Source: Nostoc sp. PCC 7107
GTDB taxonomy: Bacteria > Cyanobacteriota > Cyanobacteriia > Cyanobacteriales > Nostocaceae
Reading direction: 5' to 3'
Assembly (NCBI RefSeq): GCF_000316625.1
Contig: NC_019676.1
Location: 3,552,501-3,616,500, forward strand
DNA length: 64,000 bases
Shown: in pieces, positions 5,244 through 28,830 of the stretch
How the letters are laid out: each line of letters starts with the position of its first letter
How positions within the stretch are numbered: the stretch's first letter is position 1
Notes under the pieces: generated by a model
The model's input: the letters and a program-made list of their open reading frames with translations, nothing else
What the model was told of the DNA's origin: nothing
The model's database searches: none
Translations under genes and position numbers: made by a program

Positions 5244-6428
5244 TCAAAAATCAGGACATTCAAAATTAACAACATTCGGGTGACAGTAATATTTCAAAAC
5301 AGTTGAAACCTCATCCCCAATCAACAAAGCCACTCGATCCGGTGTGATACCACTGGCGATCGCCCAGGTGGCGAAGGTATGGCGAGTTGAGTAGGGTTTG
5401 AGATATGGCAATAATCCTTCACTGGCAAGCTCTTTAACTACACCTGGGTAAAATTTGTCTTTATTCGGGCAACCATACCAAGCGTTATATAGTGCGTCCC
5501 CGTTCATCTGGGTTCCCTGTTTTGAGATGAATATCGTTTTACTTGCTGCACCTCCGGCGGGTGGTTTTAGCTCTAGCAGCAATTGATGAAGTTTGGAATT
5601 TGGTACGGTCGAGAATATGCGGCGCTTGCCATTTTTTGTACCTTTGCGAACTTTATATAAGTTGCAGGATTTTGTAATTGAAATTTTGGTGCAATCAGCA
5701 TTAACATCGCTCCATGTGAGGGCAAAAGCTTCGCCTAAACGAACACCTGTGTAAAACAAAAACTTTACAAGCGGTGCATAATGGCTATGCAATCGGTGTG
5801 ATTCAAAGCCTTGAATCACCAAATCCCGTTGCTCAATAGTGAATGCCAATATCTGCTCTGACACCTCACTACTTTTGCGGGGTTTTTTAATTTTGAGTCG
5901 CTCGAACGGATTTTGAGTAATCAGTCCAGAGTCAACACCCCATACACAGCACTCGTTGAACCTCACTAACAACTCCCAAGCCATACGGCGGGTTGTATTC
6001 ACTAGTAGCCAATCGCGGATTTGTGGTGCTTGTCTTAAATCCTGGGTGGGCAATCTGGCAATGTATCTGGCTGTGGCACCATAGTTACTTTTAATTGTGG
6101 TTGGTTCTAGTAAGGCTTTTTTGAATTCAGTGAACCTGTTCCATAATTCACCCAAGCTTAATGGGTAATTGCTCACAGGACAAGCTTCAATTCCATTACG
6201 TATGGGGTTGAAACAATAAGATTTTAAAGAACCATCAAACCGTTCTAAGGCAATATCAGACTTGATTAAATCACGTCTCAACCGCACAATTTCGCGGTTA
6301 ACTGGAGTGTCCACTAAGCCTGATGACAGATAGAATTGTTTTGCAAATCCTCTGACTCGGAAACGCAAACTTAAGCGGTTAGTTTCTGGGTCAGTATTAA
6401 TCCATTGGTCAGCGTGATTTCGTGCCAA
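5244..6428 (-). CDS. Tyrosine recombinase / integrase
   Basis: A 394-aa phage-type integrase next to attL. The C-terminal catalytic domain (about 190-390) shows the first arginine in FYTGVRLGEAFAL (R230), the box II arginine-histidine in PYSTRHTFAT (R349, H350) and a candidate nucleophile in VLKYYCHPN (Y380 or Y381). The usual histidine of the HxxR motif appears to be tyrosine here. The N-terminal part contains an arm-type or core-binding region. The start is a TTG preceded by AAGGTGG, so it is not certain. It follows the zinc-ribbon gene at 6452 by 23 bp, probably in one transcript. It should catalyse recombination between attP and the M20 gene end. Confidence 0.92.
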   Translation of the reverse strand: MARNHADQWINTDPETNRLSLRFRVRGFAKQFYLSSGLVDTPVNREIVRLRRDLIKSDIALERFDGSLKSYCFNPIRNGIEACPVSNYPLSLGELWNRFTEFKKALLEPTTIKSNYGATARYIARLPTQDLRQAPQIRDWLLVNTTRRMAWELLVRFNECCVWGVDSGLITQNPFERLKIKKPRKSSEVSEQILAFTIEQRDLVIQGFESHRLHSHYAPLVKFLFYTGVRLGEAFALTWSDVNADCTKISITKSCNLYKVRKGTKNGKRRIFSTVPNSKLHQLLLELKPPAGGAASKTIFISKQGTQMNGDALYNAWYGCPNKDKFYPGVVKELASEGLLPYLKPYSTRHTFATWAIASGITPDRVALLIGDEVSTVLKYYCHPNVVNFECPDF

Positions 6429-6451: not shown

Positions 6452-6679
6452 TTAGTCTTGCCAGTTATCAATAATTTCCCAATACTGCATGGGAATATGA
6501 TTTTTCATAACTTCTGCTACTTCTTTCTGTGAAAAATATCCTTCCCAGCCGCAAGTGTCGCACTCAACATCAAAAGTTGTGCCAGGGTCATGAGGTAGGA
6601 AATAAAGATTGCAATCATGACACTCTGGACAACGATGTTCTAAAATCACCGGGTTTAATTCACTGCTGAAATCAGTCAT
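6452..6679 (-). CDS. Small zinc-ribbon protein
   Basis: A 75-aa protein with two CxxC knuckles (CPECHDC and CDTCGW), typical of a treble-clef or ribbon fold that binds zinc. It overlaps the end of the upstream replication gene by 8 bp and sits just before the integrase, so the three are probably co-transcribed. A DNA-binding accessory role, for example as an excision factor, is possible from the position, but no sequence feature proves it. Confidence 0.7.
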   Translation of the reverse strand: MTDFSSELNPVILEHRCPECHDCNLYFLPHDPGTTFDVECDTCGWEGYFSQKEVAEVMKNHIPMQYWEIIDNWQD

Positions 6680-11019: not shown

Positions 11020-11262
11020 ATGACAGAAGGAGAAAAAAGAGAACCGTTAACACCGATGTCACTAAGAAAACGTGTTGGGTTAACCCAAAGAAAGGTCGCT
11101 CAAGAACTGGATATTCGCTCTCAAACAGTTGGTGACTGGGAAAAGGGCGGTGTACCTCATTTGACACCTTCAAAAATGAAGCGTTTATGTGAGATTTATC
11201 AATGCAGTTTAGATGACTTAATTGAGGCGTTTGAAATGCGTAATAGCGCTCATACCAGTTAG
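11020..11262 (+). CDS. Cro/C1-type helix-turn-helix regulator
   Basis: An 80-aa protein with an XRE-type HTH at about residues 14-72 (KRVGLTQRKVAQELDIRSQT, then a WEKGG turn). It is likely the element's switch regulator. The start is uncertain: a TATAAT box abuts the ATG at 11020, so a transcript from that promoter would start inside this frame. The internal ATG at 11056 would then be used, giving a 68-aa protein that still holds the full HTH. It lies between the minus-strand replication arm and the plus-strand arm, the usual place for a phage immunity regulator. Confidence 0.85.
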   Translation: MTEGEKREPLTPMSLRKRVGLTQRKVAQELDIRSQTVGDWEKGGVPHLTPSKMKRLCEIYQCSLDDLIEAFEMRNSAHTS

Positions 11263-13610: not shown

Positions 13611-13806
13611 ATTCAACGAAAGTCTCTACAAAGCATCTATGGAAGCGCTTTTGACCGCCAACGTTCCGCGAGCGATCGCCGAAGCTGCATCAAGAGTGGT
13701 CGCTAGTGACCAAGCAGATCAACCAAATTTGGGCAGAACCAAAGAAGACCAACAAGCAGTTAACACCGCAATGCAACACTATCGAAGCAATCAGGAGGAT
13801 TCATGA
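13603..13806 (+). CDS. Small hypothetical protein
   Basis: A 67-aa helical protein, rich in Ala, Gln and Asp, without a recognised family. Overlaps of 8 bp upstream and 4 bp downstream indicate translational coupling to the ParM-like gene that follows. Confidence 0.6.
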   Translation: MTEFNESLYKASMEALLTANVPRAIAEAASRVVASDQADQPNLGRTKEDQQAVNTAMQHYRSNQEDS

Positions 13807-14822
13807 CACTCAACGCACACATACAGCCATATAACGGATTTACTTCATATCCGCAAAACGGACACACCAGAGCGCGAGTTGTTTTCGACGGTGGCAACCG
13901 CTTTATTAAATGGCTGGATACGGATAACAACGTGAAATATATACCTAGTTGCATTAAAGAAGTATCCGAGTATCAATGGAAACGTCTCAAACCAGATACC
14001 CAGTCAGTATTAATTGAAGTTGATGGTAAACGCTATGTGATTGGGCGATTGGCTCAACAGCTAAACGGAGAGCCAACTTTTCAAAAAGACAAATGCGAAC
14101 TAGCCGAAATTCTGGTGCTGGCAGCAATTCAGCCCAGTAGAGGTTTTGACCACGTTCGCATTGAACGCCTGGCGATCGCTTTACCTAACTCCCTTAACAG
14201 CAATGATGTGGCCGCGGTGCAACGGATAGCCAACCATCCTTTAACCCGTGAATTTATCCGTGACGATCGCACCATCACCTACACAGTCGGCACAGTCGAA
14301 CCAATCGACGAAACCTATCCCGCTTTCCTATATGCCCAAAAACAAGGGTTTTACCAATTTCCAGAAGCACAAAACGCCGTTTGGGATATTGGCGGCGGCA
14401 CATCGATCGCCAGAATTTACACCCCCAACGGCACACTACTGCACGATGCTGAAGTGATTCTTCCAGGAACCAAGCAACTGGCCCAAGAAATAGCCAGCGA
14501 ACTGAAAGAGTCTCATAACCTCGACTATTCACCATCGCTGACATTAATCATGGATGCAATTGAACGCCGAGATTACGTTTACGGCACAGACCAGCTTGAC
14601 TTTTGGGAAATTTATGATCGCCAAACCTCAGCCTGGATAGAAACTGCCAGAGCCGCAATTCGTTCTAAATGGGTGAATTACTTACCCGAACTTGGCCATG
14701 TGCTTGTAGTTGGTGGCAGCGCGGAACTCGCCAGGCCAATTTGTGAATTAACCAGCGATCGCTTCTTCATCCCTGACCAACCCCAATTTTTTAACCTTAT
14801 CGCAATGGCGCACATGGACTAA
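13803..14822 (+). CDS. ParM-like actin-type ATPase
   Basis: A 339-aa protein of the ParM/StbA actin-like family. The signatures are an N-terminal phosphate loop (VVFDGGNRFIKWL, about residue 22), a central WDIGGGTSIARIY (about 198) and a late adenosine motif LVVGGSAELARP (about 302). In plasmids ParM filaments push replicated copies apart via the ParR adaptor bound to parC. The ATG overlaps the preceding gene by 4 bp, and its stop overlaps the next start by 1 bp. In an integrated element this implies an extrachromosomal, segregated stage. Confidence 0.85.
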   Translation: MTLNAHIQPYNGFTSYPQNGHTRARVVFDGGNRFIKWLDTDNNVKYIPSCIKEVSEYQWKRLKPDTQSVLIEVDGKRYVIGRLAQQLNGEPTFQKDKCELAEILVLAAIQPSRGFDHVRIERLAIALPNSLNSNDVAAVQRIANHPLTREFIRDDRTITYTVGTVEPIDETYPAFLYAQKQGFYQFPEAQNAVWDIGGGTSIARIYTPNGTLLHDAEVILPGTKQLAQEIASELKESHNLDYSPSLTLIMDAIERRDYVYGTDQLDFWEIYDRQTSAWIETARAAIRSKWVNYLPELGHVLVVGGSAELARPICELTSDRFFIPDQPQFFNLIAMAHMD

Positions 14823-15144: not shown

Positions 15145-15432
15145 ATGAATAAACCTATCGGCTACTACACCTCATATACTCCCGGTGATACGGGACTGCT
15201 AGAAGATATGCAGGATGAATGGGGTGCGTGTTTTGAAAAATTGAGCAATGCAGAGCGACTGTGGATGATTTCACAGTTTGCGGATCAACTCCTCAATGTC
15301 CAGCCAAAAGACCAAGTGATATCAAGATTGGTAGAAATAGCTGTGGCAGAGGCTAAATCTCAATTAACAGTTGGCGATCGCCTGGGACTAATCCGAGCAT
15401 TGGCAGACCAGATCAACATTTCTCCCCAGTAA
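15145..15432 (+). CDS. Hypothetical protein
   Basis: A 95-aa helical, acidic protein of unknown function (NAERLWMISQFADQLL in the middle). It is preceded by AAGGAGA about 12 bp before the ATG. The stop overlaps the next gene's ATG by one base, so it is coupled with the membrane protein gene that follows. Confidence 0.6.
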   Translation: MNKPIGYYTSYTPGDTGLLEDMQDEWGACFEKLSNAERLWMISQFADQLLNVQPKDQVISRLVEIAVAEAKSQLTVGDRLGLIRALADQINISPQ

Positions 15433-15833
15433 TGCAGCACACCAACAAATATCAAATGCAAGCAGTCCTAGGATTTGTGGGACTAGCTTGTATTTCCTTT
15501 CCGTTACTGGCCAAGCTTCCCGGTCAGATTCAAGCTTTCAAAGCCATTCACCAAGTCCAGACATCAGAACAAATTGAGCGTGAGCGCCTGCAAGAGCGAA
15601 AATTAACCGCCGATAAATTACTTGAAACCGGAATACTGCCAACCACACAAAAACTCAAAGTTAGACAGTATCTCGACAGCAAAAAAATAGACCCTAAGCC
15701 AGACACCACAGGCTGGTTAGAAGACGAAGTGATTTATGTCTATGACTCAGGCGGAACTTGCATCGGTAAAATCGCCAATCGTCGCTGGTTGTGGAAACAC
15801 AAATTCAAAAATGCTTGTAAAGGAGTTCTTTAA
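15432..15833 (+). CDS. Single-pass membrane protein
   Basis: A 133-aa protein with one N-terminal membrane helix (about 11-27, VLGFVGLACISFPLLAKL) followed by a basic, helical soluble part. The last 40 residues look beta-rich, with one cysteine pair. The next gene begins one base after its stop. It belongs to a group of three genes that precede the membrane-anchored ATPase; a joint role in a trans-envelope or packaging complex is inferred. Confidence 0.6.
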   Translation: MQHTNKYQMQAVLGFVGLACISFPLLAKLPGQIQAFKAIHQVQTSEQIERERLQERKLTADKLLETGILPTTQKLKVRQYLDSKKIDPKPDTTGWLEDEVIYVYDSGGTCIGKIANRRWLWKHKFKNACKGVL

Positions 15834-16541
15834 ATGGGTATTAAAACAGATGATGACACTAGCAGCCATCCTGTTAACAAACCAGATAAACAAATTAGCG
15901 TCAGCGTCTACGCGGAGATTTTAGCTAATTGGATCATCAACTTAATCAGCTTGCCAGTGAGTTTCGTTGCTTATATTCTCAGTTCTTTTGTCACTCCCGG
16001 TAGTGGTGGTACAAAAATACTAGGAGCAATTGGATTTTTCATTGGCACTACCCTCAGCGCTGATAGTGTGTGGCAAGCAATGTTTCAAGGAACACCTTTA
16101 TTTCCTTGGTACGAACAAAACTGGGTAGGTTGGCTAGGTTGGCTAACAGTGCCATTTAACTTATTTTTCTGGCTAAGTTGGGCTATTTCCTCCTTGGTGC
16201 AAGTTATGGAAGCCAGAACACTCAGAGGTAAAAAACCTAACATAGCCAAAACCGAGTACGAGGATGCCAAGCAATACGCTCTAGATAACAAACCAAATAA
16301 TGGTGTTATCGACATTACTAAAGCCTTGTGGGGTGATTACAAGCGTGCCGGCATGAAAGAACGCCACTCAGGTGCAGCAGTCGCCTTATTCTTTTGGGCT
16401 TTTGACATCACCACAACTTTTGTTGGGCGTAACCCGTTTAGGTATCAAGACCCAGGGCAAATCATTGGCTGTTTCGCCTATAACATCGCCGCCATGATCG
16501 CCGGAGAAATTGGTTTCACGCTTTGGAAGCTAACTAAATAA
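15834..16541 (+). CDS. Polytopic membrane protein
   Basis: A 235-aa protein with about four to five hydrophobic segments (near 27-55, 64-80, 95-125, 180-195 and 205-225) and a basic central loop containing EARTLRGKKPN. No family is recognised. It follows directly on a membrane protein gene and precedes the ATPase locus. Candidates are a component of a DNA transfer channel or a virion inner-membrane protein. Confidence 0.6.
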   Translation: MGIKTDDDTSSHPVNKPDKQISVSVYAEILANWIINLISLPVSFVAYILSSFVTPGSGGTKILGAIGFFIGTTLSADSVWQAMFQGTPLFPWYEQNWVGWLGWLTVPFNLFFWLSWAISSLVQVMEARTLRGKKPNIAKTEYEDAKQYALDNKPNNGVIDITKALWGDYKRAGMKERHSGAAVALFFWAFDITTTFVGRNPFRYQDPGQIIGCFAYNIAAMIAGEIGFTLWKLTK

Positions 16542-16908: not shown

Positions 16909-18975
16909 ATGCAACAAGTAGAACCATTACCTCAGCCAACAATCCCCCAAATCACAACTAGAGAAACAGCCAGACTCCGAAGCGACTACCCAGCAATTGA
17001 ACACCTAGAAGCGGGTAACGTTGCAGCGTGGCTGATGGAAAGACAAGACCAATTACTAGTGCGCTCCAAAAACCAACGGGCAGAAATGAACTTAGCCAAA
17101 CTCCTGACCTTGGCAGTAGGCGCAACGGGAGCCGTTTGTTATGCCACATCACCACTAGCCCCCATTGGTGCATTAATCGCTGGTGTTGGTTATGTTTGGG
17201 CAGTAGCTCAAGACTTGAATGATTCTCACCAATTTGCACCACTGCCATTTATTCGGGGTAACTTTTGGGAATTTGCGATCGCAATGGGAGACTCTGAAGC
17301 CAGAGCCGACTGGTTCAGTCAAAAAAATGAACTAGTTGATTTGATGCTTCACCTAGAACCTTTTGAGCGTTACGAGTTTGGAATGCTCAAACAATATTTG
17401 CCCACCTTGTCAGAATTTTTAACTACAGTTGAATCAGGGAAACGGTTTTACGCTTATCGCTGGCTACTGGACACATTTGTTCTCTTACGTGGCGAAATTC
17501 CCACTCAAGAGCAATTGTCCAATCACTTATGTGTTGTCACAGTCGATCCACAAATTGACTATGAGAGGGTTAACTTAATCCAGCAACGAGTTACCCCGCT
17601 CATAGGTGAAGCAGAAACAGTTGATCATCTGTCACGGGAGGAACTAGTTATTTCAGGAACAATTGAAAACCAACAACAAAAACTGTTGCAGTTTTACGAT
17701 TGGGATAATTTACAAGATGAAGCCGCTGGAGTGTTAATTGTTGGTAACTCCGGTGCGGCAAAAACTTCTGTGGCTGTTTGGCTGTTGGGGAAGTTCACTG
17801 AATCTACTCCCGCCCAGGTATTAGCTTTAGATACTCACGCCAACGTGAATGTAATTTGGCGTGAGTGGAATATTCCCGTGATTCGAGAAGTAGCAGCAAT
17901 TGAAGCGCAAATAAAATTATTGGTTCAACTGCTGAACTATCGGCAGGAACTCACCTGGGAACAACTAGAAACAGAAGATGACATTATTGTTGTCGCAGAC
18001 GAATTAAACGCCAACCTTTATCGGTTCAAAAGCCCCAAAGAATTAGAAATTGCTTTAAAACGGCTAGGCAGTGAAGGTAGAAAGTACAAAATTACCTTTG
18101 TGGCACTCAACCAAAGTTCTAACTGTGAGGATATTGGTATTAGCAGGCCAATGAAGAATAATTATGCGATCGTGCTGTTGGGAGCCTCCGCCGTCAGTTT
18201 TGCTGAAAGTAACTGGAAATCAACCGACCCTAGAAGACAACATATTGAATCTAACGCTTACCCTTGCATCGTTTCCGGTGCAATTCGCCATCAAGTAGCC
18301 TTACACCCCACTCATCACCAATACACCCAATTTAAGAAAAAAGGTAACGCCCCACAAAATTTACGCCCAATCAACACTTTACCTTTGACTATTCCTCTGG
18401 CCTTTGGCCACGAACATTTACGCCAGGAGCGCCAGCAGCCCCCGCGGACTTCAAAGACTGAAGACCTTACACCAGAAGCACAGCAACGATTACAGCAAAT
18501 AAAAACCTTAATAGAACAAGGACATTCCCCAGAAGACATCATTAACCAACTGTGGGCAATCACCCCCGCCGACGGCGATCGCTGGGAATATGTCAAAGGC
18601 ATTTACTGTGATATGTGCCGGATACTGGGGATACAGCCAGACGATACACCCAAAGATGAAGTATCAACAGTTGATACAAAAACTGATATTGCACCCCTCA
18701 CCGTATTTACCCAAGAACTGGACAACACAAGCGATTCAGACAATATCCCTAAAATCGATACACCCGATACTTATCCAGATATCAACGCCTTCCCCTCCGA
18801 AAAAGAGCTTTTGGCAATGCTGCAAAATACCAACCTGCCACCGGGGGAGTTTATCAAACAGACCCTCAAAGCCACTAGAGGCGATCGCTATCGTTTAGCC
18901 ATCAAAGCCATAGTTTACGTAGTCCGGTACTATGGTGACTTCAACCTTATGCAAAAATTCCAACGCTACTTGTGA
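16909..18975 (+). CDS. Membrane-anchored P-loop ATPase (FtsK/HerA/TraD-like candidate)
   Basis: A 688-aa protein. Two hydrophobic helices lie near residues 62-101. The P-loop is VLIVGNSGAAKTSVAV (Walker A 279-286) and Walker B is DIIVVADE (359-365). A sensor-like segment ITFVALNQSSNCEDI follows, and there is a helical C-terminal extension. The N-terminal membrane anchor plus additional-strand-type ATPase core is the layout of FtsK, TraD/VirD4 coupling proteins and HerA-type packaging motors. It could pump element DNA into a capsid or across a membrane. No terminase or relaxase accompanies it. The subfamily cannot be decided by eye. Confidence 0.75.
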   Translation: MQQVEPLPQPTIPQITTRETARLRSDYPAIEHLEAGNVAAWLMERQDQLLVRSKNQRAEMNLAKLLTLAVGATGAVCYATSPLAPIGALIAGVGYVWAVAQDLNDSHQFAPLPFIRGNFWEFAIAMGDSEARADWFSQKNELVDLMLHLEPFERYEFGMLKQYLPTLSEFLTTVESGKRFYAYRWLLDTFVLLRGEIPTQEQLSNHLCVVTVDPQIDYERVNLIQQRVTPLIGEAETVDHLSREELVISGTIENQQQKLLQFYDWDNLQDEAAGVLIVGNSGAAKTSVAVWLLGKFTESTPAQVLALDTHANVNVIWREWNIPVIREVAAIEAQIKLLVQLLNYRQELTWEQLETEDDIIVVADELNANLYRFKSPKELEIALKRLGSEGRKYKITFVALNQSSNCEDIGISRPMKNNYAIVLLGASAVSFAESNWKSTDPRRQHIESNAYPCIVSGAIRHQVALHPTHHQYTQFKKKGNAPQNLRPINTLPLTIPLAFGHEHLRQERQQPPRTSKTEDLTPEAQQRLQQIKTLIEQGHSPEDIINQLWAITPADGDRWEYVKGIYCDMCRILGIQPDDTPKDEVSTVDTKTDIAPLTVFTQELDNTSDSDNIPKIDTPDTYPDINAFPSEKELLAMLQNTNLPPGEFIKQTLKATRGDRYRLAIKAIVYVVRYYGDFNLMQKFQRYL

Positions 18976-19625: not shown

Positions 19626-20435
19626 ATGACAATTTCGAGCATCAATATAGTTAAGCCCATAGTCCTAAGTTTAAATAACACCTCGACAAACGAGGTATAT
19701 CGCATTTTTGAAGATGAGCCATTCTCTACAGAAAATGGCTCAATTATTAGTGAAAATATTTTTCTAAAAAACTTAAAAGCTTACGTCAAAATCAGCAGTT
19801 TAGCTCCTGCCCAATTACCAGATATCAGCATTGAAGATTCACAAGTGCAAGCCACCTACAAAACGCTTAATGCCGAGTGGATATCAGAACGTAAACAGCT
19901 TAATCTGTTGATTTCCACTGGTGATAATCAATGGTTTCCAGTTGGTTCAATCAGCTTGCTTAACCCTTCTGGCTACCCCTATAGGATTCACAACTTGATG
20001 GATTTGTATACTGACAACCTCATGGTAGAACTAGGGCAAACTGGGAGACTGGGGGTACAACTTCAGGATGTCGGGACTGGACTACTAGTTGGCAGTGATA
20101 CCATCACCATTCATGGTAGCTATTTAAAAGAAGTAGTAATTGATGATACCGCTCAATCAATTACCACCTCCAATGATTTCGCTGTATCTGTATCGGGAAG
20201 CAATTCTCCTGTTTTAGCTGCAAATACGAATAGAAAATATGTTGTATTAATAAATAATTCTTTAGAGGATATTTATATCAATTTAAGTGAAACTTCCCAA
20301 GCTGGACAGGGAATACTATTAAAAGCCGATGGCGGAAGCTATGAATTTTATACATCTACCATTAATTACAAAGGTGCAATAACAGCTTCCACATTTGGCG
20401 ACACAGCAGCAATCACAGGAATTGAAGCAATTTAG
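19626..20435 (+). CDS. Putative virion protein with C-terminal beta module
   Basis: A 269-aa beta-rich protein. The last 70 residues carry the pattern ANTNRKYVVLINNS, IYINL, a glycine-rich turn with YEFY, and YKGAITA near the end. This is a module often seen at the ends of phage and viral structural proteins. The next protein (20444) consists almost wholly of the same module. The N-terminal 190 residues look like further beta-sandwich domains and are not recognised. There is no signal peptide or membrane segment. The structural role is inferred from the module and the operon. Confidence 0.6.
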   Translation: MTISSINIVKPIVLSLNNTSTNEVYRIFEDEPFSTENGSIISENIFLKNLKAYVKISSLAPAQLPDISIEDSQVQATYKTLNAEWISERKQLNLLISTGDNQWFPVGSISLLNPSGYPYRIHNLMDLYTDNLMVELGQTGRLGVQLQDVGTGLLVGSDTITIHGSYLKEVVIDDTAQSITTSNDFAVSVSGSNSPVLAANTNRKYVVLINNSLEDIYINLSETSQAGQGILLKADGGSYEFYTSTINYKGAITASTFGDTAAITGIEAI

Positions 20436-20443
20436 GAGTAGTA

Positions 20444-20764
20444 ATGCCTTTAAATAATCCAAGTTCAAACTTAACAGTAACTGACCAACTAGCAGGAACT
20501 AGCACAAGAATTACAGGTGCAACTTCAACATCTGCGGCGCAACTTATCCCCGCAAATGTTAATAGATTAGGACTAACAATTTACAACCCAACTTCTATTA
20601 CTGTTTACATTGACACAGCAGCCAGCCCTACTACTTCACAGCATCAATTCTCTTTGAATGCAAAAGGCTTTTATGAAATGCCCGACAATAAAATATACAC
20701 TGGTGCATTTTATGCCATTGCTGCATCAGGTACTCCCACTTTAGAAATCAGAGAATTCACTTGA
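20444..20764 (+). CDS. Small putative virion protein, stand-alone beta module
   Basis: A 106-aa protein. Its ANVNRLGLTIYN, VYIDT, LNAKGFYEMP and YTGAFYAIA segments line up in order with the C-terminus of the protein at 19626. The two are therefore probably related by duplication of one domain. AGGAGTA precedes the ATG. The stop overlaps the next gene in an ATGA. A decoration or spike role is possible. Confidence 0.6.
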   Translation: MPLNNPSSNLTVTDQLAGTSTRITGATSTSAAQLIPANVNRLGLTIYNPTSITVYIDTAASPTTSQHQFSLNAKGFYEMPDNKIYTGAFYAIAASGTPTLEIREFT

Positions 20765-20898
20765 TGAATGATTTAGCTGATTTTAAAATTCCCTATAAAA
20801 ATATAGGGAAGACTGATTATGAAGCTATGAAAAATAAATACTTGAAACTTCATAACTTATCAAAAGGTGCAATTATTCGGCATATTAAAACTTTCTAA
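20764..20898 (+). CDS. Very small basic protein
   Basis: A 44-aa protein, lysine-rich (about one fifth Lys) and without cysteine. It overlaps the upstream stop (ATGA) and the downstream start (TAATG), so it is very likely translated. Small basic peptides in a structural operon could bind DNA or act as scaffold; nothing in the sequence decides this. Confidence 0.6.
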   Translation: MNDLADFKIPYKNIGKTDYEAMKNKYLKLHNLSKGAIIRHIKTF

Positions 20899-22964
20899 TG
20901 GTACGCCAATCAAACCGAACCCCACCACAACCTAAAAACAACAGACAACGTAACCGCCCAGAGTGGACACCACCAGACGAACCAGAACCACCAGCACCAG
21001 GGCTAACCCCTCTGGGCGGTGGTTTTTATTCTACTGGGGGCGGTGCAGTTAGCCCCTTCGATTGCGGTCGCTGGCCAGACTCGCCATTTTGCGGTGGTAA
21101 TCCATTCACTAGGGAGCCAGTTGGCTTTGATTTCTCCAAAGTGCAAGATGGATGCAGCATTGGTATACAGATAAATCCGACCTTTGGATTTGTCAAGCTG
21201 CCAATTACTCAATTCGTCTACAGGTTCCCCGGTGAATGCCGGATGCCAAGCCCAAAACCAAAACCCAACCCAGAAATTGAGAATTACGACGATCTACAAG
21301 AATTGGGAGCCGGGCGATACATAACTGTCAAATCACTGCAATACAGTTACAACGATGGAAAAAGCGGTGAGACTGGCTTACCCATCGGACTGGCTGATAA
21401 TTTATATTCTGTCGGCATAAGCCAAATTGAATTTCCAATTCAAACTGATATTTATCTTGATGAGACAACAATTTGTAATTGCTCTATTACCTTTCAAGTT
21501 GAATACAGTTTTAGAATGAATATTGCTTATGTAAATGCCTTTTGGGATATTCAAACAATCGAAAATCATGTAATTCAATTAGGTGGTGAGCCTCCGCAAG
21601 ATTACGAAGACCCAACAGCAGAGTTTAGCGCCAATTCATCTGGTAGTTTTAAGGTGTTTTACGCGGTTGGTGCTTCCCTTCCACCCCATATAGAAATAGA
21701 GAGCAGTAGTTATTATTTTGGTGAGATAGCGTCTGAATATTTAAGGCAGTATGCCATCATAATTAATGCTTCTGATAATCTGACCGTTGAAAGTAAAAGG
21801 ACGACAATTAAAACTCCTTTTACTTTCTTTACTTACGACAGTTCACTATTCCCATTGGATATTCCGTCTGATTTTGAAGCAAGACAAATATCAGTTGATG
21901 GCATGGTAGAAGATGTGATTGGAACTGCTTATTATGGTGAAGCTTATTCTATAGAAATTGACGAAAACCAGTATTCAGCCCAAAAACTGGAAGACTACAA
22001 CCCACCACCACCGCCACCTGATGATAAGGATTGTGAATGTATGTGCTGTGATGATTCACTACTAAGACTACTACTTTCAAGAGTCAACAAAATTTATCAA
22101 ACTATTGGGGTCGATGATTATCCGGTATCAGCCCCACAGTGGATAACAAAGGATGATTCTCCTCAAATATCAATTGCAAATATTACTCGATTTATTAGTT
22201 ATACGGTCAAACAGTTAGATTCAATTAGCGGTAATTATCCAATTAAAATAAAAATTCAAGATGCAGACTTAACCCAAGAAGGCGATCAAACCCAATACGT
22301 GAATGTACCTAATGCCGCTGAAGCTATGGCGGAAATGCTAGGACTTTTATTAACAATTAGAAGCGAAACCAACGCTGGATTGATTGCTGCTGTGAATGGG
22401 ATGATCGAGGCTGGCTCGTCCAAGCAAACGGCGTTCTTGGCTTACGAATATGCTAAAGCTAATGCAGAATTCTTAGGATATAAAGGCAAACAAGTTGAAA
22501 GAGAAATGCCGTTTACATTCAAACCCAATGAGCCACAATTAGACAAAATGATGAAACCTACAACCATGAAGGTAAAAGGTTTTGAAAATGATGATAAAGA
22601 AGATTTTAGTGATGCAATCGCCCCAATTTTAGAAATGTCGGCGATGTGGAAGGCGCAAAACTTCCGCAATTTAGGCACAACTTCTCCAGTCACAAGACTT
22701 AGAGAAATTTTGAAAGGGGCGAATAACATTTCTGAAACGATGAACGAATTCAGAAAAAATCCCCCTACAAAACCAGACCCTAACAACCCAAATCAACAGC
22801 CCGAACCTGTTAAGGATGAATGGGATACGTTTATAGAAGAAGCTGAACAAGGATTTATTGCCCAGCCTGGCATAACTGATAATATCCATCCTTACGGCAG
22901 ACCACTTGAGCAAAGACCCAGAATCAAAGAAATTGGCAATGATACCAGCGATACGGAGGATTAA
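20898..22964 (+). CDS. Large modular protein with Cys-rich patch (candidate virion component)
   Basis: A 688-aa protein with no recognised family. It starts with a basic, proline-rich and probably disordered stretch (1-45), then a beta-rich region (about 60-365). Next come a polyproline spacer PPPPPPDDKDCECMCCDD (about 372-389) with four cysteines in six residues and a helical region (about 400-640). A proline- and asparagine-rich acidic tail closes it. The patch could bind metal or form disulfides. Start and stop are tightly coupled with neighbours. It is the largest late-type protein, so a fibre, vertex or portal-like role can be imagined, but no such motif is visible. Confidence 0.6.
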   Translation: MVRQSNRTPPQPKNNRQRNRPEWTPPDEPEPPAPGLTPLGGGFYSTGGGAVSPFDCGRWPDSPFCGGNPFTREPVGFDFSKVQDGCSIGIQINPTFGFVKLPITQFVYRFPGECRMPSPKPKPNPEIENYDDLQELGAGRYITVKSLQYSYNDGKSGETGLPIGLADNLYSVGISQIEFPIQTDIYLDETTICNCSITFQVEYSFRMNIAYVNAFWDIQTIENHVIQLGGEPPQDYEDPTAEFSANSSGSFKVFYAVGASLPPHIEIESSSYYFGEIASEYLRQYAIIINASDNLTVESKRTTIKTPFTFFTYDSSLFPLDIPSDFEARQISVDGMVEDVIGTAYYGEAYSIEIDENQYSAQKLEDYNPPPPPPDDKDCECMCCDDSLLRLLLSRVNKIYQTIGVDDYPVSAPQWITKDDSPQISIANITRFISYTVKQLDSISGNYPIKIKIQDADLTQEGDQTQYVNVPNAAEAMAEMLGLLLTIRSETNAGLIAAVNGMIEAGSSKQTAFLAYEYAKANAEFLGYKGKQVEREMPFTFKPNEPQLDKMMKPTTMKVKGFENDDKEDFSDAIAPILEMSAMWKAQNFRNLGTTSPVTRLREILKGANNISETMNEFRKNPPTKPDPNNPNQQPEPVKDEWDTFIEEAEQGFIAQPGITDNIHPYGRPLEQRPRIKEIGNDTSDTED

Positions 22965-22973
22965 ATAGTGAGC

Positions 22974-23219
22974 CTACACTTGACCTTCCCCAATTGCCGA
23001 TTCGCCCCATTCTTGCCTTAGCAGGTAAAGCCTCTCTTTGTAAATCTGTTCGCGTACCTTGGCTTCACTCCAGCCCAGTTCATTCATTAGCCGCAGTATT
23101 AATCTGTATTGCGGTCTGTAGTGATATGTTCGATTACGTCCGTTTCTTCCCCTAACGTAGCGTTTCATCATGAGACGTTTGCAGGGTGTTCCCATAAGAC
23201 TGTAACAAATTATATCCAT
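22974..23219 (-). CDS. Small basic protein, possible regulator
   Basis: An 81-aa protein on the opposite strand between two late-type genes. It is strongly basic (KRYVRGRNGRNRTYHYR) and has a helical C-terminal half with WSEAKVREQIYKERLYLLR. It may start at the internal Met at residue 18. The composition and lone inverted position suggest a DNA-binding regulator, with a palindrome at 23277-23297 in its upstream region. The evidence that it is a real gene is moderate. Confidence 0.45.
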   Translation of the reverse strand: MDIICYSLMGTPCKRLMMKRYVRGRNGRNRTYHYRPQYRLILRLMNELGWSEAKVREQIYKERLYLLRQEWGESAIGEGQV

Positions 23220-23276
23220 AGGCTACTTTGTGTACTTAGATTCATAATACCCATGCGCTAAACCCCAGGTAATTTT

Positions 23277-23297
23277 TTAGAACCCATAGGGTTCTAA
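23277..23297. promoter_or_regulatory. Perfect palindrome, operator candidate
   Basis: TTAGAACCC and GGGTTCTAA are separated by ATA. It lies between the divergent genes at 22974-23219 (minus) and 23484 (plus). There is no T-run suiting a terminator on either strand. It is a likely binding site for a regulator controlling the tandem paralogue genes. Confidence 0.6.
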
Positions 23298-23483
23298 CAG
23301 GAGTTTCAAACCTGTCAAACTTGACTTATTTTTCATAATTTTACCTACTTGCTATTAAGAATAGTCTAGTTTTTTGTACTACTAATTCATGCTAAACACC
23401 CGTGATAACAACAGATGGCGTTTTTATTGCTCATGAATTAACTTTGATTCATCGTTGAATAAAAATGTTTTTGAGGTAAATAA

Positions 23484-24170
23484 ATGCCTTCTTTTACCAG
23501 GGGAAAAAAACGTGAAGATTTGGTTTATGTGTTGGTTAATCAGTCCATGTATTATGGATGGAAACGCAAGGATATAGCTGCTTTGGGCGGTATCTCTGAA
23601 GCTGACCTAACAAATATTGGACACTTAAAAGCTGAAGGCGCAACATTGACAGCAGGTAACGTTATTGTGATTGGTGCAAAGTCACCACAACCTGCAAGAG
23701 TTACTAGAAAAATATCTAATGCAACTGTCGGACAACAACAATCAGTTTCTACATTCTGCGCGTATGACAAACTGGCGGCTGCTCTTGGAGCCAAGTGGAA
23801 CGCATCAACTAGCCGTCGGGCTGTGACCTTACGCGCTCCAGTTGCTACTCGTGGGTCACTAACTGCGATTGCTACTCTTGGCGATGGTAGTAAATATTGT
23901 TTTCCAATGAATAAAGCTGATTTTGAAAATTATGGTGCTGAACTGGGTCTAACAAATGCAACAACTATTAACACAGATCTAGAACGTAACAAACTTGTGT
24001 CTGGTTCAACTAGACCTTATCCCGGACGTGCCAGCAAATTATTAGAAGATGGTTCAACGTTCAGTAGTTTTTTCTCAACAGCCGGACAAGGTGCGGCTTT
24101 GACTGCTGGGTACGCGATTTTAAGCGAAGAAGTAATTATTTCTAACGCGGCTCCATCAGGAGGAAACTAA
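23484..24170 (+). CDS. Tandem paralogue A of unknown family (candidate capsid protein)
   Basis: A 228-aa basic-starting protein (MPSFTRGKKREDLVYVLVNQ). By eye roughly half of the residues match the next protein. Shared blocks are PQPxRVTxKIxNATVxQQ, STFCxxDKL, LTAIAxL, YCFPMNKADFxNYG and LEDGSTFxSFxS. There is no signal peptide, membrane segment or known motif. Adjacent pairs of similar-sized capsid proteins occur in some tailless viruses. This would fit the lack of tail genes, but DNA-binding or decoration roles are equally open. The gene begins a new transcription unit after a 264-bp gap. Confidence 0.65.
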   Translation: MPSFTRGKKREDLVYVLVNQSMYYGWKRKDIAALGGISEADLTNIGHLKAEGATLTAGNVIVIGAKSPQPARVTRKISNATVGQQQSVSTFCAYDKLAAALGAKWNASTSRRAVTLRAPVATRGSLTAIATLGDGSKYCFPMNKADFENYGAELGLTNATTINTDLERNKLVSGSTRPYPGRASKLLEDGSTFSSFFSTAGQGAALTAGYAILSEEVIISNAAPSGGN

Positions 24171-24179
24171 TTTTTAACA

Positions 24180-24851
24180 ATGCCAGCATACACACGTAAT
24201 AAAAAACGTGCTGATTTGGTCTTTGTACCAGTTAACCAATACTTGTATTTTGGTTTTAAGCCCAAAGACCTTACATCATTCCCCGGTGTTTCATCCGAGG
24301 ACATAACCGCGCTAGGACACATACTAACTAGCGCGATTCCCGAAGGCGGTTTACGCATTATTGGCGCGAATGCTCCTCAGCCGCCCAGGGTCACTAAAAA
24401 AATCGCTAACGCTACAGTCAGTCAACAGCGGACAATTTCAACTTTTTGCGGCCATGACAAATTACTGACAGCGCAAGCCAAAGGCTGGAACTTAACCAAA
24501 GGTAAATTGAGTATCTCTTTAAAACCTGCTAATGCTAATCGCAGTTCTTTGACCGCGATCGCAATATTGAGTAACTCAATTCATTATTGCTTCCCCATGA
24601 ACAAAGCGGATTTTGATAATTATGGGGTGGCATTGGGTTTAAAAAGTCCAGCACAAATTACCAGCACTGTTGACCAGCTTAAATTTGTATCCGGCTCGAC
24701 CAGTCCCAAGCCAGGCAAAGCAAGTAAAAAACTAGAAGATGGCTCTACGTTTACTAGTTTTTATTCAGATGCAAAGGAAAGCGATTTAACAGGAGATGGC
24801 TGGAACATCCTCAGCCAAGAAAATGTATTAGAAAGCGGTGTGCCGTTCTAA
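24180..24851 (+). CDS. Tandem paralogue B of unknown family (candidate capsid protein)
   Basis: A 223-aa partner of the preceding protein, starting 10 bp after its stop. The strongest conservation lies in the second half (YCFPMNKADFDNYG, then KASKKLEDGSTFTSF), which must be essential for the fold. The N-terminus MPAYTRNKKRADLV is conserved too, so the duplication covers the whole protein. The stop overlaps the next start by one base. The duplicates have diverged clearly, which argues for distinct, retained roles such as two capsomer types. Confidence 0.65.
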   Translation: MPAYTRNKKRADLVFVPVNQYLYFGFKPKDLTSFPGVSSEDITALGHILTSAIPEGGLRIIGANAPQPPRVTKKIANATVSQQRTISTFCGHDKLLTAQAKGWNLTKGKLSISLKPANANRSSLTAIAILSNSIHYCFPMNKADFDNYGVALGLKSPAQITSTVDQLKFVSGSTSPKPGKASKKLEDGSTFTSFYSDAKESDLTGDGWNILSQENVLESGVPF

Positions 24852-25099
24852 TGACCACATTACCAATTGAAACGGAAGCCGGGCTGATACTGCCCGGACA
24901 TCCTTTTTTTGAAGACTACTTATACTCAAGCTTCCCCCCCGGCTGGCGAGATTTCGCCTACCACAATCATGATTTTGCATTCGTAGCGCGGGCTGGTAGC
25001 AAGGTACTCGAAGCGGTCAGCGCCGCCGAGATGGAAGAATATGTTTACGGCGGGGAACTAGACGAAGTACAGGACGAAGATAATGCCTACTTCCTCTGA
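24851..25099 (+). CDS. Small acidic hypothetical protein
   Basis: An 82-aa acidic protein (DEVQDEDNAY at the end) without a recognised family. It overlaps the previous gene by 1 bp and the next by 17 bp, which indicates true co-translation in the late-type operon. A chaperone or scaffold role for the basic paralogues is conceivable from charge and position only. Confidence 0.6.
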   Translation: MTTLPIETEAGLILPGHPFFEDYLYSSFPPGWRDFAYHNHDFAFVARAGSKVLEAVSAAEMEEYVYGGELDEVQDEDNAYFL

Positions 25100-25478
25100 T
25101 GACATCGGCGTTTGGAACAATCTCGGCACAATCCGAGCCGAACCGAAAATTTGGATCAAATTCCCAACAACAGCAACAGGCGCGAATGCGACACTTCGCG
25201 CCACTTTCATCTGTAGCAATTGGGATAAACTTTCAAGCTATGTTCTGTTCCGTCCTCGTTACCAAACTGCTAATTCTAATCAAATAGGTACAGCCATTAG
25301 AATTTACCCTGAACAAATCCCTAGTATTTTTGAAATACCAATTCCTCAAGACCTGCAAGACAGAAGCGTTTATTTTCGAGACATTGAGGTTTACAAAGTT
25401 CGTTATCGGCGGACTAGATTAGTGGGAATTACATTAGATGCAAATCTTGATATCAAGCTTGAAGAATTATGGGGTTAG
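25083..25478 (+). CDS. Beta-rich hypothetical protein
   Basis: A 131-aa protein with alternating strands (KIWIKFPTTATGANATLRAT and SIFEIPIPQ), compatible with a beta-sandwich. It has no signal peptide or membrane helix. It overlaps both neighbours (17 and 10 bp). It is probably a minor structural component of the putative particle. Confidence 0.55.
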   Translation: MPTSSDDIGVWNNLGTIRAEPKIWIKFPTTATGANATLRATFICSNWDKLSSYVLFRPRYQTANSNQIGTAIRIYPEQIPSIFEIPIPQDLQDRSVYFRDIEVYKVRYRRTRLVGITLDANLDIKLEELWG

Positions 25479-27049
25479 CCGATATTGTTTCTGATGGCTT
25501 AGACTCTAAAGTTGTCCGCCAGCAGATAGGTGAGAGAATTTTCAAATCTTCATTTGAAGATAAGCAAACCACCCAGCAGGGTGAAAATAACATCATTTCT
25601 TGGATTTGGAATTCTGGTAGTAAACTTGTAGGCTTTCTAGTTGCAAACGCTGGAAAATTAATTAGTTTTACTTTGACTGGCGCTTGGTCTTTATTTGTCT
25701 CAACAATCCAATTTATTTGGAATTTCGATTGGAATATGAGTGACAAATCAATTGATCAACAAATCCAACAGTATTGGAATAATATTTTAGGAATGCTTGG
25801 AGGGACTTTAGGTAATCTATTCGGGTATTTAGCTTGTGGTGTGGTTCCCGCCGCCACCATTGCAGTGTTCAATGAACCTCTTGGCGCTTATGTAATGAAA
25901 AATGTACTTGAGGAATTAGCTGAGGAATTTTTATCAAACGTAGCTAATTTGGTTCGGTACACTTTCATGAGTGGGGTACAAGCACTTATATTAATTGGAT
26001 TCAAAAATATTAGAAAATGGATTAAAGGTAATGCTGCATTTTTTGGGCGGATATTTGGAGACAAAGCAGAAAATGCTATTAAAGCTTGGGGCGCTGAAGG
26101 TTCAAAACCTTGGAGTTTCGCCATACAAAATGAGAAATTCTTAGAATCCATTCCTAATGAAGGAATTAGAAATTTAGTTGAAGAATTTCAAGAGGAAGCC
26201 TGGGAGGGATGTGTGGAAGCTGGCTATGTAGTAGCGAATTCAATTGATAGTTATTTGGCTGCTGAAAAGCTTAAAAAACAAATTCTTCCCGCGGCAGGTG
26301 AAACTAAATATGTGGAAATTACACCTGATAGGAGTATTGAGAACCAAAAAATAATTCTTGCAGGTGCGGAAGATATTTTGAAACCTGTAATTGTCCAGAC
26401 TTTGACTAATTATCAAATGATGGAGGATAAGGATATTGGTACTTTTGTAGGTAGCCCAATTGATGAACTATTGAGAAGTAAACCAAGAACAATTAGCTTA
26501 CAAATTCAGTTTTTCAGCGTCAAAACACCGCCCTGGTCGAAGCGTCAGGGAGAAAGCCGACTTGTTAGCGCGACCTACACCGTCCCCGATATTGACTCCG
26601 TTAAATTGGACTGGGAGAAAATCAAGCTTTACTGCGGTGGCGAAAATGGCTATATGTATGGGCGGTATCGGGCAACTGGAATGCTAGATAATGGGCGGCA
26701 AATGGCAATCTACGCCCACACAGGAGATGAAGCTGAAGACAGAATGAGGGAACTGCTTAAATTATCTAAAGCCAGTTTGCTCAAGAAACCGACAATTTCA
26801 GAAGATAGGGCAGAAGACAGCACGGGCAGTTACTTAAAGCAACCCATTAGAATTTATCCGGCATATTTCACAGTTTTAAATCAATACCAAGTTCCAGGCG
26901 CTCCAGGTTCAAGTATTCCTATTACTGGAAAGCGGTACATGAGGCGCACCGATAGAATTGATCTTTGGGTTGAAACTAAACCCTATGACTTCCAAGAACG
27001 TATTTTGGAATTACTCAAAAAACCTGGAGCAGAACAAGAAACAACCTAA
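25469..27049 (+). CDS. Large protein with hydrophobic N-terminal half (virion membrane candidate)
   Basis: A 526-aa protein. Several hydrophobic stretches occur between about 40 and 195 (for example SKLVGFLVANAGKLISF, LGNLFGYLACGVVPAATIAV and FMSGVQALILIGF). The remainder is soluble, with a beta-rich C-terminal domain (about 340-510) containing TISLQIQFFSVKTPPWSKR. No family is recognised. Such a protein could sit in a virion membrane, form a genome-delivery pore or anchor a spike. It is placed inside the coupled late-type operon, with a 10-bp overlap upstream. Confidence 0.6.
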   Translation: MGLADIVSDGLDSKVVRQQIGERIFKSSFEDKQTTQQGENNIISWIWNSGSKLVGFLVANAGKLISFTLTGAWSLFVSTIQFIWNFDWNMSDKSIDQQIQQYWNNILGMLGGTLGNLFGYLACGVVPAATIAVFNEPLGAYVMKNVLEELAEEFLSNVANLVRYTFMSGVQALILIGFKNIRKWIKGNAAFFGRIFGDKAENAIKAWGAEGSKPWSFAIQNEKFLESIPNEGIRNLVEEFQEEAWEGCVEAGYVVANSIDSYLAAEKLKKQILPAAGETKYVEITPDRSIENQKIILAGAEDILKPVIVQTLTNYQMMEDKDIGTFVGSPIDELLRSKPRTISLQIQFFSVKTPPWSKRQGESRLVSATYTVPDIDSVKLDWEKIKLYCGGENGYMYGRYRATGMLDNGRQMAIYAHTGDEAEDRMRELLKLSKASLLKKPTISEDRAEDSTGSYLKQPIRIYPAYFTVLNQYQVPGAPGSSIPITGKRYMRRTDRIDLWVETKPYDFQERILELLKKPGAEQETT

Positions 27050-27058
27050 TGATTAATT

Positions 27059-27553
27059 ATGCCTTTATCCAACCCAGAAGGAACACATCAAACTCTTTTA
27101 TTAATTGCAACTAAAACAAGTAATCAATCTCTAACAAGTAACGCAGCAGCAACACCAATTATTTACAACACAAAAGATTATGACCCTTACAATGGGTATG
27201 TTTCATCAGGTACAGGTCAAGGGATTTATACTGTACCAGCTTGGTTCAGTGGCATTGTTGAATTAACTTGTGCTGCTTCTGTTTCGTTTTCTGGCGGTGG
27301 TAGCTCTGGTACAGAAACTATTGTGCTTTCCGCATATAAAAATGGCACCTTTATCGGTGAATTAGATAGAGCATTGGCAACTGCAATTGCTGGTGCAAGT
27401 GATGGCGCTGGCAATAGTATTTATATTCCTAGCGTCTCACCTGGCGATACCGTAGAGGCGAGAATTCAAACTCTTTATACTGCTGCTACTGGCACGATAA
27501 CAATAGTTGGTAGTGCGAAAAATCAATTATCTCTTGTTGGCTGGAGTACGTGA
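27059..27553 (+). CDS. C1q/TNF-like jelly-roll protein (candidate virion spike)
   Basis: A 164-aa protein. Residues about 45-160 follow the pattern of C1q/TNF-type jelly rolls in phage structural proteins: GIYTVPAWFSGIVELTCAAS, a central LSAYKNGTFIGEL, then SVSPGDTVEARIQ and TGTITIVG strands. Such trimers commonly form receptor-binding or spike domains. The family assignment is by pattern, not search. It starts 9 bp after the upstream stop. Confidence 0.55.
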   Translation: MPLSNPEGTHQTLLLIATKTSNQSLTSNAAATPIIYNTKDYDPYNGYVSSGTGQGIYTVPAWFSGIVELTCAASVSFSGGGSSGTETIVLSAYKNGTFIGELDRALATAIAGASDGAGNSIYIPSVSPGDTVEARIQTLYTAATGTITIVGSAKNQLSLVGWST

Positions 27554-27622
27554 AACTTAATTGGTAAAAACCCACAGGATTTTCTACTGTATTTCGATTA
27601 TCTTAAGAAGATCCTTTGCAGA

Positions 27623-28018
27623 GTGGCGGTGTTGTCGCCACTTCATTTTATGTTTTCTTCACTAAAAGATTCTGTAGATGTAATATTATCTGTAACTGCT
27701 TTAATAGGGATAATTTTTCACATTGCCAAAATTAAAGCCGATATAGAAAAAGCTATTGATGATGTTAAAGATGAGCTACGAACTGAATTAATGAGTTTGA
27801 ATACAGATGTTAAAGTATCTCGCGCTCAACAAGAAGGTAAAAAGGAGATGGTCGAGTACTTTATTAACGATTTGTATTATCAAATTCATCACAAATTTTA
27901 TCGAGTCTGGAATGAAGTAAAAGACTTGCAATCTTTTTTACAAAAAGACGGATATGTAGCCAGAGTCAGGCACGAAGAACCACCAGCACCAAAAAAAATT
28001 AAAATCGACGAGATTTGA
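27623..28018 (+). CDS. Membrane protein with coiled coil
   Basis: A 131-aa protein with one membrane helix (about 17-35) followed by a long charged helix (KADIEKAIDDVKDELRTELM) and a basic C-terminus. The start may be the GTG at 27623 or the ATG at 27650; the latter leaves the helix intact. Position near the end of the late-type operon and size fit lysis-associated or virion membrane proteins. No lytic enzyme domain is seen. Confidence 0.55.
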   Translation: MAVLSPLHFMFSSLKDSVDVILSVTALIGIIFHIAKIKADIEKAIDDVKDELRTELMSLNTDVKVSRAQQEGKKEMVEYFINDLYYQIHHKFYRVWNEVKDLQSFLQKDGYVARVRHEEPPAPKKIKIDEI

Positions 28019-28063
28019 GCTTCACTCATGGGAATGCTGATATAAACGTAAGCAGTAAATTTT

Positions 28064-28249
28064 ATGAGCCAACAAACTTTAGATAGACTCAGTACAATCT
28101 TTGGTGCGGTTGCGGGTATTTCGAGCATCCTTGGTAGCACTGGGCTAATTAATCAGCAATTCGCTGGCACGGTGGCAGGGCTTTCGACAGCAATACTCGG
28201 TTACTTGGTACAACGCCAGCCGGGACAGCCACAAACACAGCCTAAATAA
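28064..28249 (+). CDS. Holin-like small hydrophobic protein
   Basis: A 61-aa protein with two hydrophobic segments (about 10-28, IFGAVAGISSILGSTGLI, and 33-50, GTVAGLSTAILGYLVQR) and a short polar tail. This is the layout of class II holins and of small virion membrane proteins. No adjacent endolysin is visible, which weakens the holin assignment. Confidence 0.55.
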   Translation: MSQQTLDRLSTIFGAVAGISSILGSTGLINQQFAGTVAGLSTAILGYLVQRQPGQPQTQPK

Positions 28250-28260
28250 GACAAGAAATA

Positions 28261-28455
28261 ATGGAACATACTTTAGAAGAGTTTTTGCAACGCCATCAAG
28301 CTAAAGCAGTTGACTTTGGCTTAAGAGCCGAGTGCTACAAAGGGCAATGGCGATTTTACATTCATCCGCAACATGTTGACGGGGAAACTTGGGATTTTGA
28401 AGTCAATGGCAATCAGTTAACTTGTGTTAGTGTTCCTAGCACGTTGGATAGCTAA
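28261..28455 (+). CDS. Small hypothetical protein, last gene of the element
   Basis: A 64-aa soluble protein with aromatic-rich strands (YKGQWRFYIHPQHV and ETWDFEVNG). It starts 11 bp after the holin-like gene and is followed by a strong terminator. No family is recognised. Confidence 0.55.
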   Translation: MEHTLEEFLQRHQAKAVDFGLRAECYKGQWRFYIHPQHVDGETWDFEVNGNQLTCVSVPSTLDS

Positions 28456-28814: not shown

Positions 28815-28830
28815 TGCCTATAAATATTGG
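28815..28830. other. attR core (16-bp direct repeat)
   Basis: An exact copy of the attL core. The next bases, TTGTAA, complete the reading AYKYWL-stop in the M20 frame, so this side carries the original chromosomal gene end. Upstream of it there is no similarity to the M20 gene. Over the next 51 bases it aligns without gaps to the DNA after attL (29 matches by hand). Confidence 0.9.

Follow-up and report, generated by a model that had tools for sequence, protein, structure and literature searches.

A putative provirus of Nostoc sp. PCC 7107 and its cyanobacterial relatives, without recognised tailed-phage hallmarks

Surveys that look for viruses in sequence data depend largely on hallmarks such as terminase and the HK97 and jelly-roll capsids, and the locus described here is a virion-like operon in which none of these was recognised. 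The operon lies at positions 19626-28455 of a 64,000-nucleotide stretch of the Nostoc sp. PCC 7107 genome (NC_019676.1, positions 3,552,501 to 3,616,500, forward strand), referred to below as the window, and was proposed in a first-pass annotation to belong to a temperate tailless virus. In this study, we report that the operon forms the right part of a precisely bounded mobile unit of 23,756 bp, whose relatives in other cyanobacteria include tandem copies, an excised-looking circle and circular plasmids. The evidence tilts, if only slightly, towards an apparently uninterrupted provirus of an undescribed and widespread lineage of temperate tailless cyanobacterial viruses, whose particles would probably be tailless and membrane-associated.

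A 16-bp repeat, TGCCTATAAATATTGG, occupies the last codons, at the 3' end, of a host gene (3902-5080) beside the integrase (attL, 5059..5074), and an exact copy of it is present at 28815..28830 (attR). In genome G848, of the same genus, the left and right flanks are contiguous (91% and 87% identity) and their matches overlap by 20 bases at the attachment (att) repeat, constituting a natural empty site. On the basis of the att repeats and the contiguous flanks, the mobile unit was delimited to 5059-28814 and not to 19626-28455. The interrupted host gene resembles, by eye, an M20-type peptidase and has a homologue in all 60 genomes of the family searched. The integrase is a tyrosine recombinase encoded on the - strand (5244..6428; Phage_integrase 2.1e-12, Arm-DNA-bind_2 2.3e-5, phrog_1 5.4e-34). 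With integrase, att repeats and empty site, the window element appears, as far as sequence can tell, to be a temperate integrative element; the circular and tandem forms described below were seen only in relatives.

The late operon comprises 12 codirectional open reading frames (ORFs) on the + strand, starting at 19626, 20444, 20898, 23484, 24180, 24851, 25083, 25469, 27059, 27623, 28064 and 28261. This agrees with the earlier count of at least eleven coupled genes on one strand, except that a conserved antisense gene (22974-23219) lies within the operon. Most of the ORFs overlap or are spaced by 70 bases or fewer; wider gaps of 133 and 519 bases precede 20898 and 23484, respectively, and the latter gap contains the antisense gene. 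A strong intrinsic terminator, as had been claimed, closes the operon on the + strand (28471..~28513), with a 15-bp stem followed by a T tract (-26.7 kcal/mol, z -7.99; none of 200 shuffles was equally good).

No tail-tube, sheath, portal, terminase or HK97 profile was detected in the late proteins of the window, and no portal, terminase or HK97 profile in the members of alignments A4 and A5. The profiles of g23484 and four other families gave no convincing sequence match in the Protein Data Bank (PDB). In six complete elements (the window, G087, G789, G700, L066 and L067), 66 unassigned proteins were scanned, namely 57 of the 58 proteins of at least 100 residues (one transposase was dropped) and nine early window proteins; the scan excluded proteins already placed in late or early families, known enzymes and shorter ORFs. 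The 66 proteins matched 18 PHROG and 11 Pfam families at E 0.001, none of which was a terminase, portal, HK97, tail-tube, sheath, relaxase, type IV secretion system, conjugation or pilus family; small-terminase, scaffold and capsid-remodelling profiles were also not found among them. One weak minor-tail match (9.4e-4) was obtained, and one FHA protein also matched Yop-YscD_cpl, an FHA-type domain of type III secretion systems (1.1e-8). By such profiles the element would be placed neither among the tailed phages (Duplodnaviria) nor, in the absence of relaxase and mating-pair functions, among conjugative or mobilizable elements; the sole relaxase-type match among the window genes scanned was a NikA-like match of the ORF at 12215-12466 (0.073, below cut-off). 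The profile scans agree with the first-pass annotation that tailed-phage hallmarks are not visible, and the core late proteins had no convincing relative in the libraries searched; HK97 and portal proteins, pili and surface-layer (S-layer) proteins, which it had named as possible contrary findings, were sought by sequence profiles and none was found.

The signature late protein g25469 (25469..27049, +) has a helical N-terminal part with hydrophobic segments, in keeping with the possibly membrane-containing virus proposed earlier, and an alpha/beta C-terminal domain which is a separate gene in some relatives. A hydrophobic segment was found, at a lenient threshold, in 36 of 37 full-length g25469 proteins; the AlphaFold2 model was of moderate quality (predicted local distance difference test, pLDDT, 78.3; predicted template modelling score, pTM, 0.45). 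The coat-protein candidate g23484 (23484..24170, +) consists of two tandem repeats of about 105 residues (hhalign 99.4%, E 9e-22), and its paralogue g24180 (24180..24851, +; 49% identical) follows directly. The model of g23484 (pLDDT 91.8, pTM 0.85) has an alpha/beta two-repeat fold, which had no Foldseek match among the chains compared, is not an evident jelly roll and gave no HK97-fold match. The jelly-roll capsid envisaged earlier was therefore not borne out in the sole well-modelled coat candidate. We infer that g23484 and g24180 may form the coat, since the family is broadly though not universally conserved, occurs as tandem paralogues, contains an internal duplication and has a confidently predicted compact fold.

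Relatives were sought with iterated profiles, over 22 loci of other cyanobacteria for the initial family counts and later over 38 fetched loci, of which L022 is a flank without the module and the pairs L031/L032 and L101/L102 each represent two copies in a single genome. In the 22 loci, relatives were found for the antisense gene and for nine of the 12 late ORFs, which make up eight families; the ORFs at 27059, 28064 and 28261 had none. In the larger set g25469 was recognised in 36/38 loci and g23484 in 33/38, most of L021-L040 having been fetched for holding g23484. Wider samples, in which every count includes the own genome, gave hits for g25469 in 59 of the 388 genomes sampled from the class (E 1e-5), so that roughly one in seven would carry the proposed group; g23484 was present in 18 of 291 genomes from the order (E 0.001) and, in a profile search of a phylum sample, in 18 of 386 (E 1e-4). 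A peptide pattern matched 282 stretches in bacterial and archaeal species genomes, 30 of which encode a relative, all cyanobacterial, in a scan that would miss distant relatives outside cyanobacteria. Gene order varies among relatives and some segments are inverted. For gene pairs formed among relatives, the ratio of nonsynonymous to synonymous substitution rates (dN/dS) was 0.05-0.23 in the eight of 13 pairs with finite dS (1.01-2.09), the other five being saturated, which places the late genes of the relatives under purifying selection. The single-contig genome G007 holds two related elements at distant sites (L106/L107 and L108/L109), which are 94% identical over ~7.6 kb of the late region and diverged elsewhere, a pattern we read as modular exchange.

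Several relatives occur in forms other than a single integrated copy. One genome holds two identical tandem copies with a period of 21,490 bp, inserted in the 3' half of a tRNA-Ala gene with a 43-bp att sequence; in another the tandem period is 15,374 bp, and 14,976 bases within the stretch fetched are identical. In a third genome the chromosomal copy, flanked by 50-bp repeats, is matched at 100% identity by a circularly permuted contig of 18,288 bp; with one base redundant at its ends, this contig has the appearance of an excised circle. Relatives are also carried by two circular plasmids of 20,757 and 20,803 bp, one of Tolypothrix and one of Allocoleopsis, both typed as non-mobilizable by PLSDB and the only plasmids matched when a plasmid collection was searched with g25469 proteins. 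The plasmid of Tolypothrix PCC 7601 encodes the core late families including g23484, and that of Allocoleopsis PCC 7113 only g25469, g20898 and g19626 in recognisable form, without g23484.

The proposal of a temperate tailless virus draws on precise integration, excision, a regulator, the lysis-type enzymes and exchangeable fibres of relatives, and several conserved soluble proteins together with a membrane-type protein. What the first-pass annotation had said of a temperate virus gains from the integration site, the excised circle of a relative, a Cro/C1-type helix-turn-helix (HTH) protein and the endolysin- and fibre-type proteins of relatives, and the lack of tailed-phage hallmark profiles among the proteins scanned agrees with its tailless reading. 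Late peptidoglycan hydrolases are encoded in three relatives, Amidase_3 in L021 (4.9e-35), C39_2 in L037 (3e-16) and M15_3 in L104 (5.5e-16), the last also with a PHROG endolysin match (4.9e-22), and the three are mutually unrelated.

Several observations weigh against this proposal. Neither a particle nor induction nor protected DNA is known, and no lysin could be identified in the window element. The coat candidate g23484 is not universal: of 14 distinct elements retrieved by way of g25469, 10 have a recognisable copy, and L067, L113, L116 and L117 gave none even in a search at E 10 with filtering switched off. Other proteins follow g25469 in L067 and L113, and in L116 transposase-like ORFs adjoin it (by eye); in these four, g23484 has been replaced or has diverged beyond recognition, or else g23484 is not the coat. 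A stand-alone P-loop ATPase was found in only four of the six complete elements (window, G087, L066 and L067), and that of L067 has an unusual Walker A motif and no Pfam match. Many fibre or minor-tail PHROG matches were obtained for two late proteins of relatives (L101 and L021) among the 10 tested, or two of nine when the endolysin-type protein of L104 is set apart, and tape-measure matches for one of 14 and one of 10 members in the alignments A4 and A5. These fibre and tape-measure matches fall within repeats or in hydrophobic stretches rich in glycine, and they neither prove nor exclude a tail. A known fold in g25469, whose model was of moderate quality, or in g20898, g25083 or g19626 may have been missed. 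No relative was found in 50,697 INPHARED phage records (tblastn with two g25469 proteins and g23484), and in IMG/VR no relative could be confirmed by scans restricted to short peptide patterns; the literature searched contained no description of the family. The lack of matches in phage and viral collections and in the literature fits a group missed by hallmark-based surveys, and it equally means that no virus-fraction support exists.

If the element is a temperate tailless virus, its cycle could run as follows. The HTH protein would repress the late operon; once the element is excised, its circle would be replicated by the DnaB-type protein, and ParM would partition it when kept as a plasmid. 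The late operon would then yield soluble proteins that assemble inside the cell, with g23484 and g24180, each a pseudo-dimer of one ~105-residue unit, forming the coat in the window element, g25469 acting in the membrane as a genome-delivery or inner-membrane protein, and g25083, g24851 and g20898 as minor structural proteins. Exchangeable attachment spikes might be provided by g19626, g20444 and g27059, and the P-loop ATPase would pump DNA where present. Small hydrophobic proteins encoded at the end of the operon, together with the late peptidoglycan hydrolases of some relatives, could bring about cell lysis. A more specific proposal is put forward tentatively, as one that may well prove wrong: a virus group outside the present realms, so far found in cyanobacteria only, in most of whose members the coat would be a fused pair of ~105-residue alpha/beta units, with a fold so far absent from viruses and solved structures. 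Such a group, if real, would have been overlooked because it lacks the hallmark genes used by virus finders. The lineage described here combines precise borders with excised and plasmid forms, has no recognised hallmark and went unmatched in the searches of phage and viral collections; should particles be confirmed, they would represent a new virion architecture, and the number of virus groups invisible to hallmark surveys would become a testable question.

The alternative that fares best, unlikely as we consider it, is a phage satellite packaged in capsids that an unrelated tailed phage supplies as helper, the late genes remodelling or decorating the helper particle. Element sizes of 15.4-23.8 kb, an integrase together with a VapE- or D5-type primase-helicase in two relatives, and the lack of terminase and capsid profiles would all suit a satellite. 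Against it stand several late proteins conserved as a module, with fibre- and endolysin-type proteins in relatives; known satellites, to our knowledge, carry less than such a module. Neither a small-terminase nor a scaffold profile was found among the 66 proteins, and the own genome offers no evident helper: the terminase family PF03354, detected in three of 14 control genomes, was not found in it, and phrog_2, which we take to be the large terminase, gave one weak match (2.3e-4) outside the element. An incoming helper could still serve, and plasmids may be missing from the one-contig assembly.

A diverged phage of tailed or otherwise known fold, in which g20898, g25469, g19626 or g25083 would be the HK97 or jelly-roll capsid, is improbable. 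It draws on the fact that only g23484, itself not universal, was modelled with high confidence, and on the fibre and minor-tail matches in two relatives and the tape-measure-type matches in A4 and A5; the scanned proteins of the six complete elements yielded no portal, terminase or HK97 profile, and the five family profiles compared with the PDB found nothing convincing there. Quite improbable, too, is a capsid-less pleomorphic or vesicle-type virus, whose DNA would exit in membrane vesicles studded with g25469 and spikes and without a protein shell. A conserved membrane-type protein, the spike candidates and the absence of P-loop ATPase and of coat candidate from some members agree with this; several conserved late proteins, including the two-repeat g23484, are nevertheless soluble and without a hydrophobic segment, and the late peptidoglycan hydrolases of some relatives suggest lysis rather than budding. 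It is very improbable that the late operon makes a surface structure (S-layer, pilus or adhesive fibre) for a plasmid or integrative element that is not a virus, for although circular plasmids, the ParM-type partition protein of the window element and a Malectin domain in one relative could be so explained, no hydrophobic segment was found in the core soluble late proteins of the window, which speaks against S-layer or pili, the 66 proteins gave no conjugation or pilus profile apart from the Yop-YscD_cpl match, and relatives encode endolysin- and fibre-type proteins.

The capsid proteins of P23-77 are jelly rolls. P23-77-like phages have a small and a large major capsid protein plus membrane-associated proteins (PMC12429598), and the window element likewise encodes two small tandem coat candidates and a membrane-type protein; unlike theirs, the candidates are mutual paralogues and not evident jelly rolls. 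The PM2 and Odin groups are tailless with a double jelly-roll capsid, and most have an FtsK/HerA-type ATPase, the Odin group and FLiP being without a detectable packaging ATPase (PMC5894146). The present elements resemble the PM2 and Odin groups (PMC5894146) in their small genomes, in the integrases that some of those viruses carry and in the apparent lack of an ATPase from two of six elements, and differ in that no jelly-roll coat was detected, the coat candidate being an alpha/beta two-repeat protein, and in that no sequence relative was found among known virion proteins. Circular forms, plasmid partition genes and toxin-antitoxin genes recall the phage-plasmids of glacial ecosystems, several of which carry terminases (PMC4490671), whereas none was recognised here. 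Plasmid P1 of Microcystis NIES-298 is likewise a cyanobacterial plasmid with phage-like genes, which match Microcystis phages (PMC12510456), whereas the g25469 searches matched only the Tolypothrix and Allocoleopsis plasmids, in a collection that may or may not include P1.

Among the remaining late genes, all on the + strand, g19626 (19626..20435; relatives in 13/22 loci) is a candidate spike or attachment protein, and its C-terminus may have a module in common with the small g20444 (20444..20764; 9/22 loci). The two matched at E 0.008 in a single comparison and phrog_30212 matched g20444 at 8.9e-5 and g19626 at 0.16, values that weakly favour the repeated C-terminal beta module described earlier. 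The large g20898 (20898..22964; 18/22 loci; alignment A5) has a variable proline-rich N-terminal part and a better conserved C-terminal part, with no convincing PHROG or PDB match in profile searches. The 82-residue g24851 (24851..25099) is conserved in 29/38 loci, and the 131-residue g25083 (25083..25478; alignment A8), beta-rich by eye, in 23/38. The element-specific g27059 (27059..27553) is an attachment candidate by position; the C1q-like jelly roll once assigned to it was not recovered, there being no Pfam match at E 1. The holin-like peptide of the first-pass annotation corresponds to two candidates, proposed from small size and one hydrophobic segment each: g27623 (27623..28018; segment 14-32; relatives in 14/38 loci) and a 61-residue membrane peptide (28064..28249; segment 11-29). 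The latter weakly matched phrog_3996, a membrane-protein family (0.014), which together with tape-measure matches of g25469 (0.0048 and 0.1) made up the only named PHROG matches of the window's late proteins. The last late ORF (28261..28455) encodes 64 residues. Recurrent late proteins of 168-186 residues with a GTGGTIKST-like motif (by eye) were seen in several relatives (L067:3646-4152, L101:14856-15416, L021:18749-19264 and L026:8453-8986) and were not noticed in the window element. In L055 and L056 the coat-candidate frame is split into two overlapping ORFs, which may reflect decay, an assembly error or a programmed shift.

The antisense gene (22974..23219, -) encodes a conserved small basic protein with relatives in 23/38 loci (for example L066:3434-3679 and L031:9248-9442), averaging 22% lysine plus arginine and 10% aspartate plus glutamate over 21 sequences. 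In 19 of the 22 loci holding both, it is encoded on the other strand from g23484, and it often abuts the 3' end of g20898 or g25469; dN/dS was 0.05 and 0.15 in the two of five pairs of relatives with finite dS. The protein could be a late regulator or a nucleic-acid-binding packaging factor.

Upstream of the operon, the P-loop ATPase (16909..18975, +) is a candidate FtsK/HerA-type packaging motor with the Walker A motif GNSGAAKT at residue 279; the membrane anchor attributed to it comes down to one borderline hydrophobic segment (82-100). It weakly matched the terminase large subunit family phrog_2666 (5.3e-5), and an iterated profile found P-loop homologues in L031, L032, L037 and L066. FtsK/HerA profile matches occur in two of the four ATPase-bearing complete elements, below curated cut-offs, the L066 homologue matching FtsK_SpoIIIE at 2.2e-4 and a HerA domain at 3.7e-4. 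Two predicted membrane proteins of 133 and 235 residues (15432..16541, +; hydrophobic segments 8-30 and 29-49) precede the ATPase and had no family match at E 0.1 in Pfam and PHROG profile scans.

The early genes include a DnaB-N and RecA-like replicative helicase-type protein (6672..9092, -; DnaB 7.5e-25, AAA_25 3.8e-23) with relatives in three of 22 loci (L021, L024 and L038), replication genes varying between this DnaB type and the VapE- or D5-type primase-helicases of two relatives. The Cro/C1-type HTH regulator, a lysogeny-switch candidate, is encoded at 11020..11262 (+; HTH_3 8.9e-12) and the ParM-like actin partition protein at 13803..14822 (+; ALP_N 3.7e-8, phrog_691 partition protein 5.6e-22). 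Between the ATPase and the late operon, two overlapping small genes (19007-19554) have by eye the look of a RelB/RelE-type toxin-antitoxin pair, for the second of which the G700 element has a weak relative (41.6 bits). Outside the element, 2568-2787 and 46390-46574 have several exact repeats of 19-39 bp in common.

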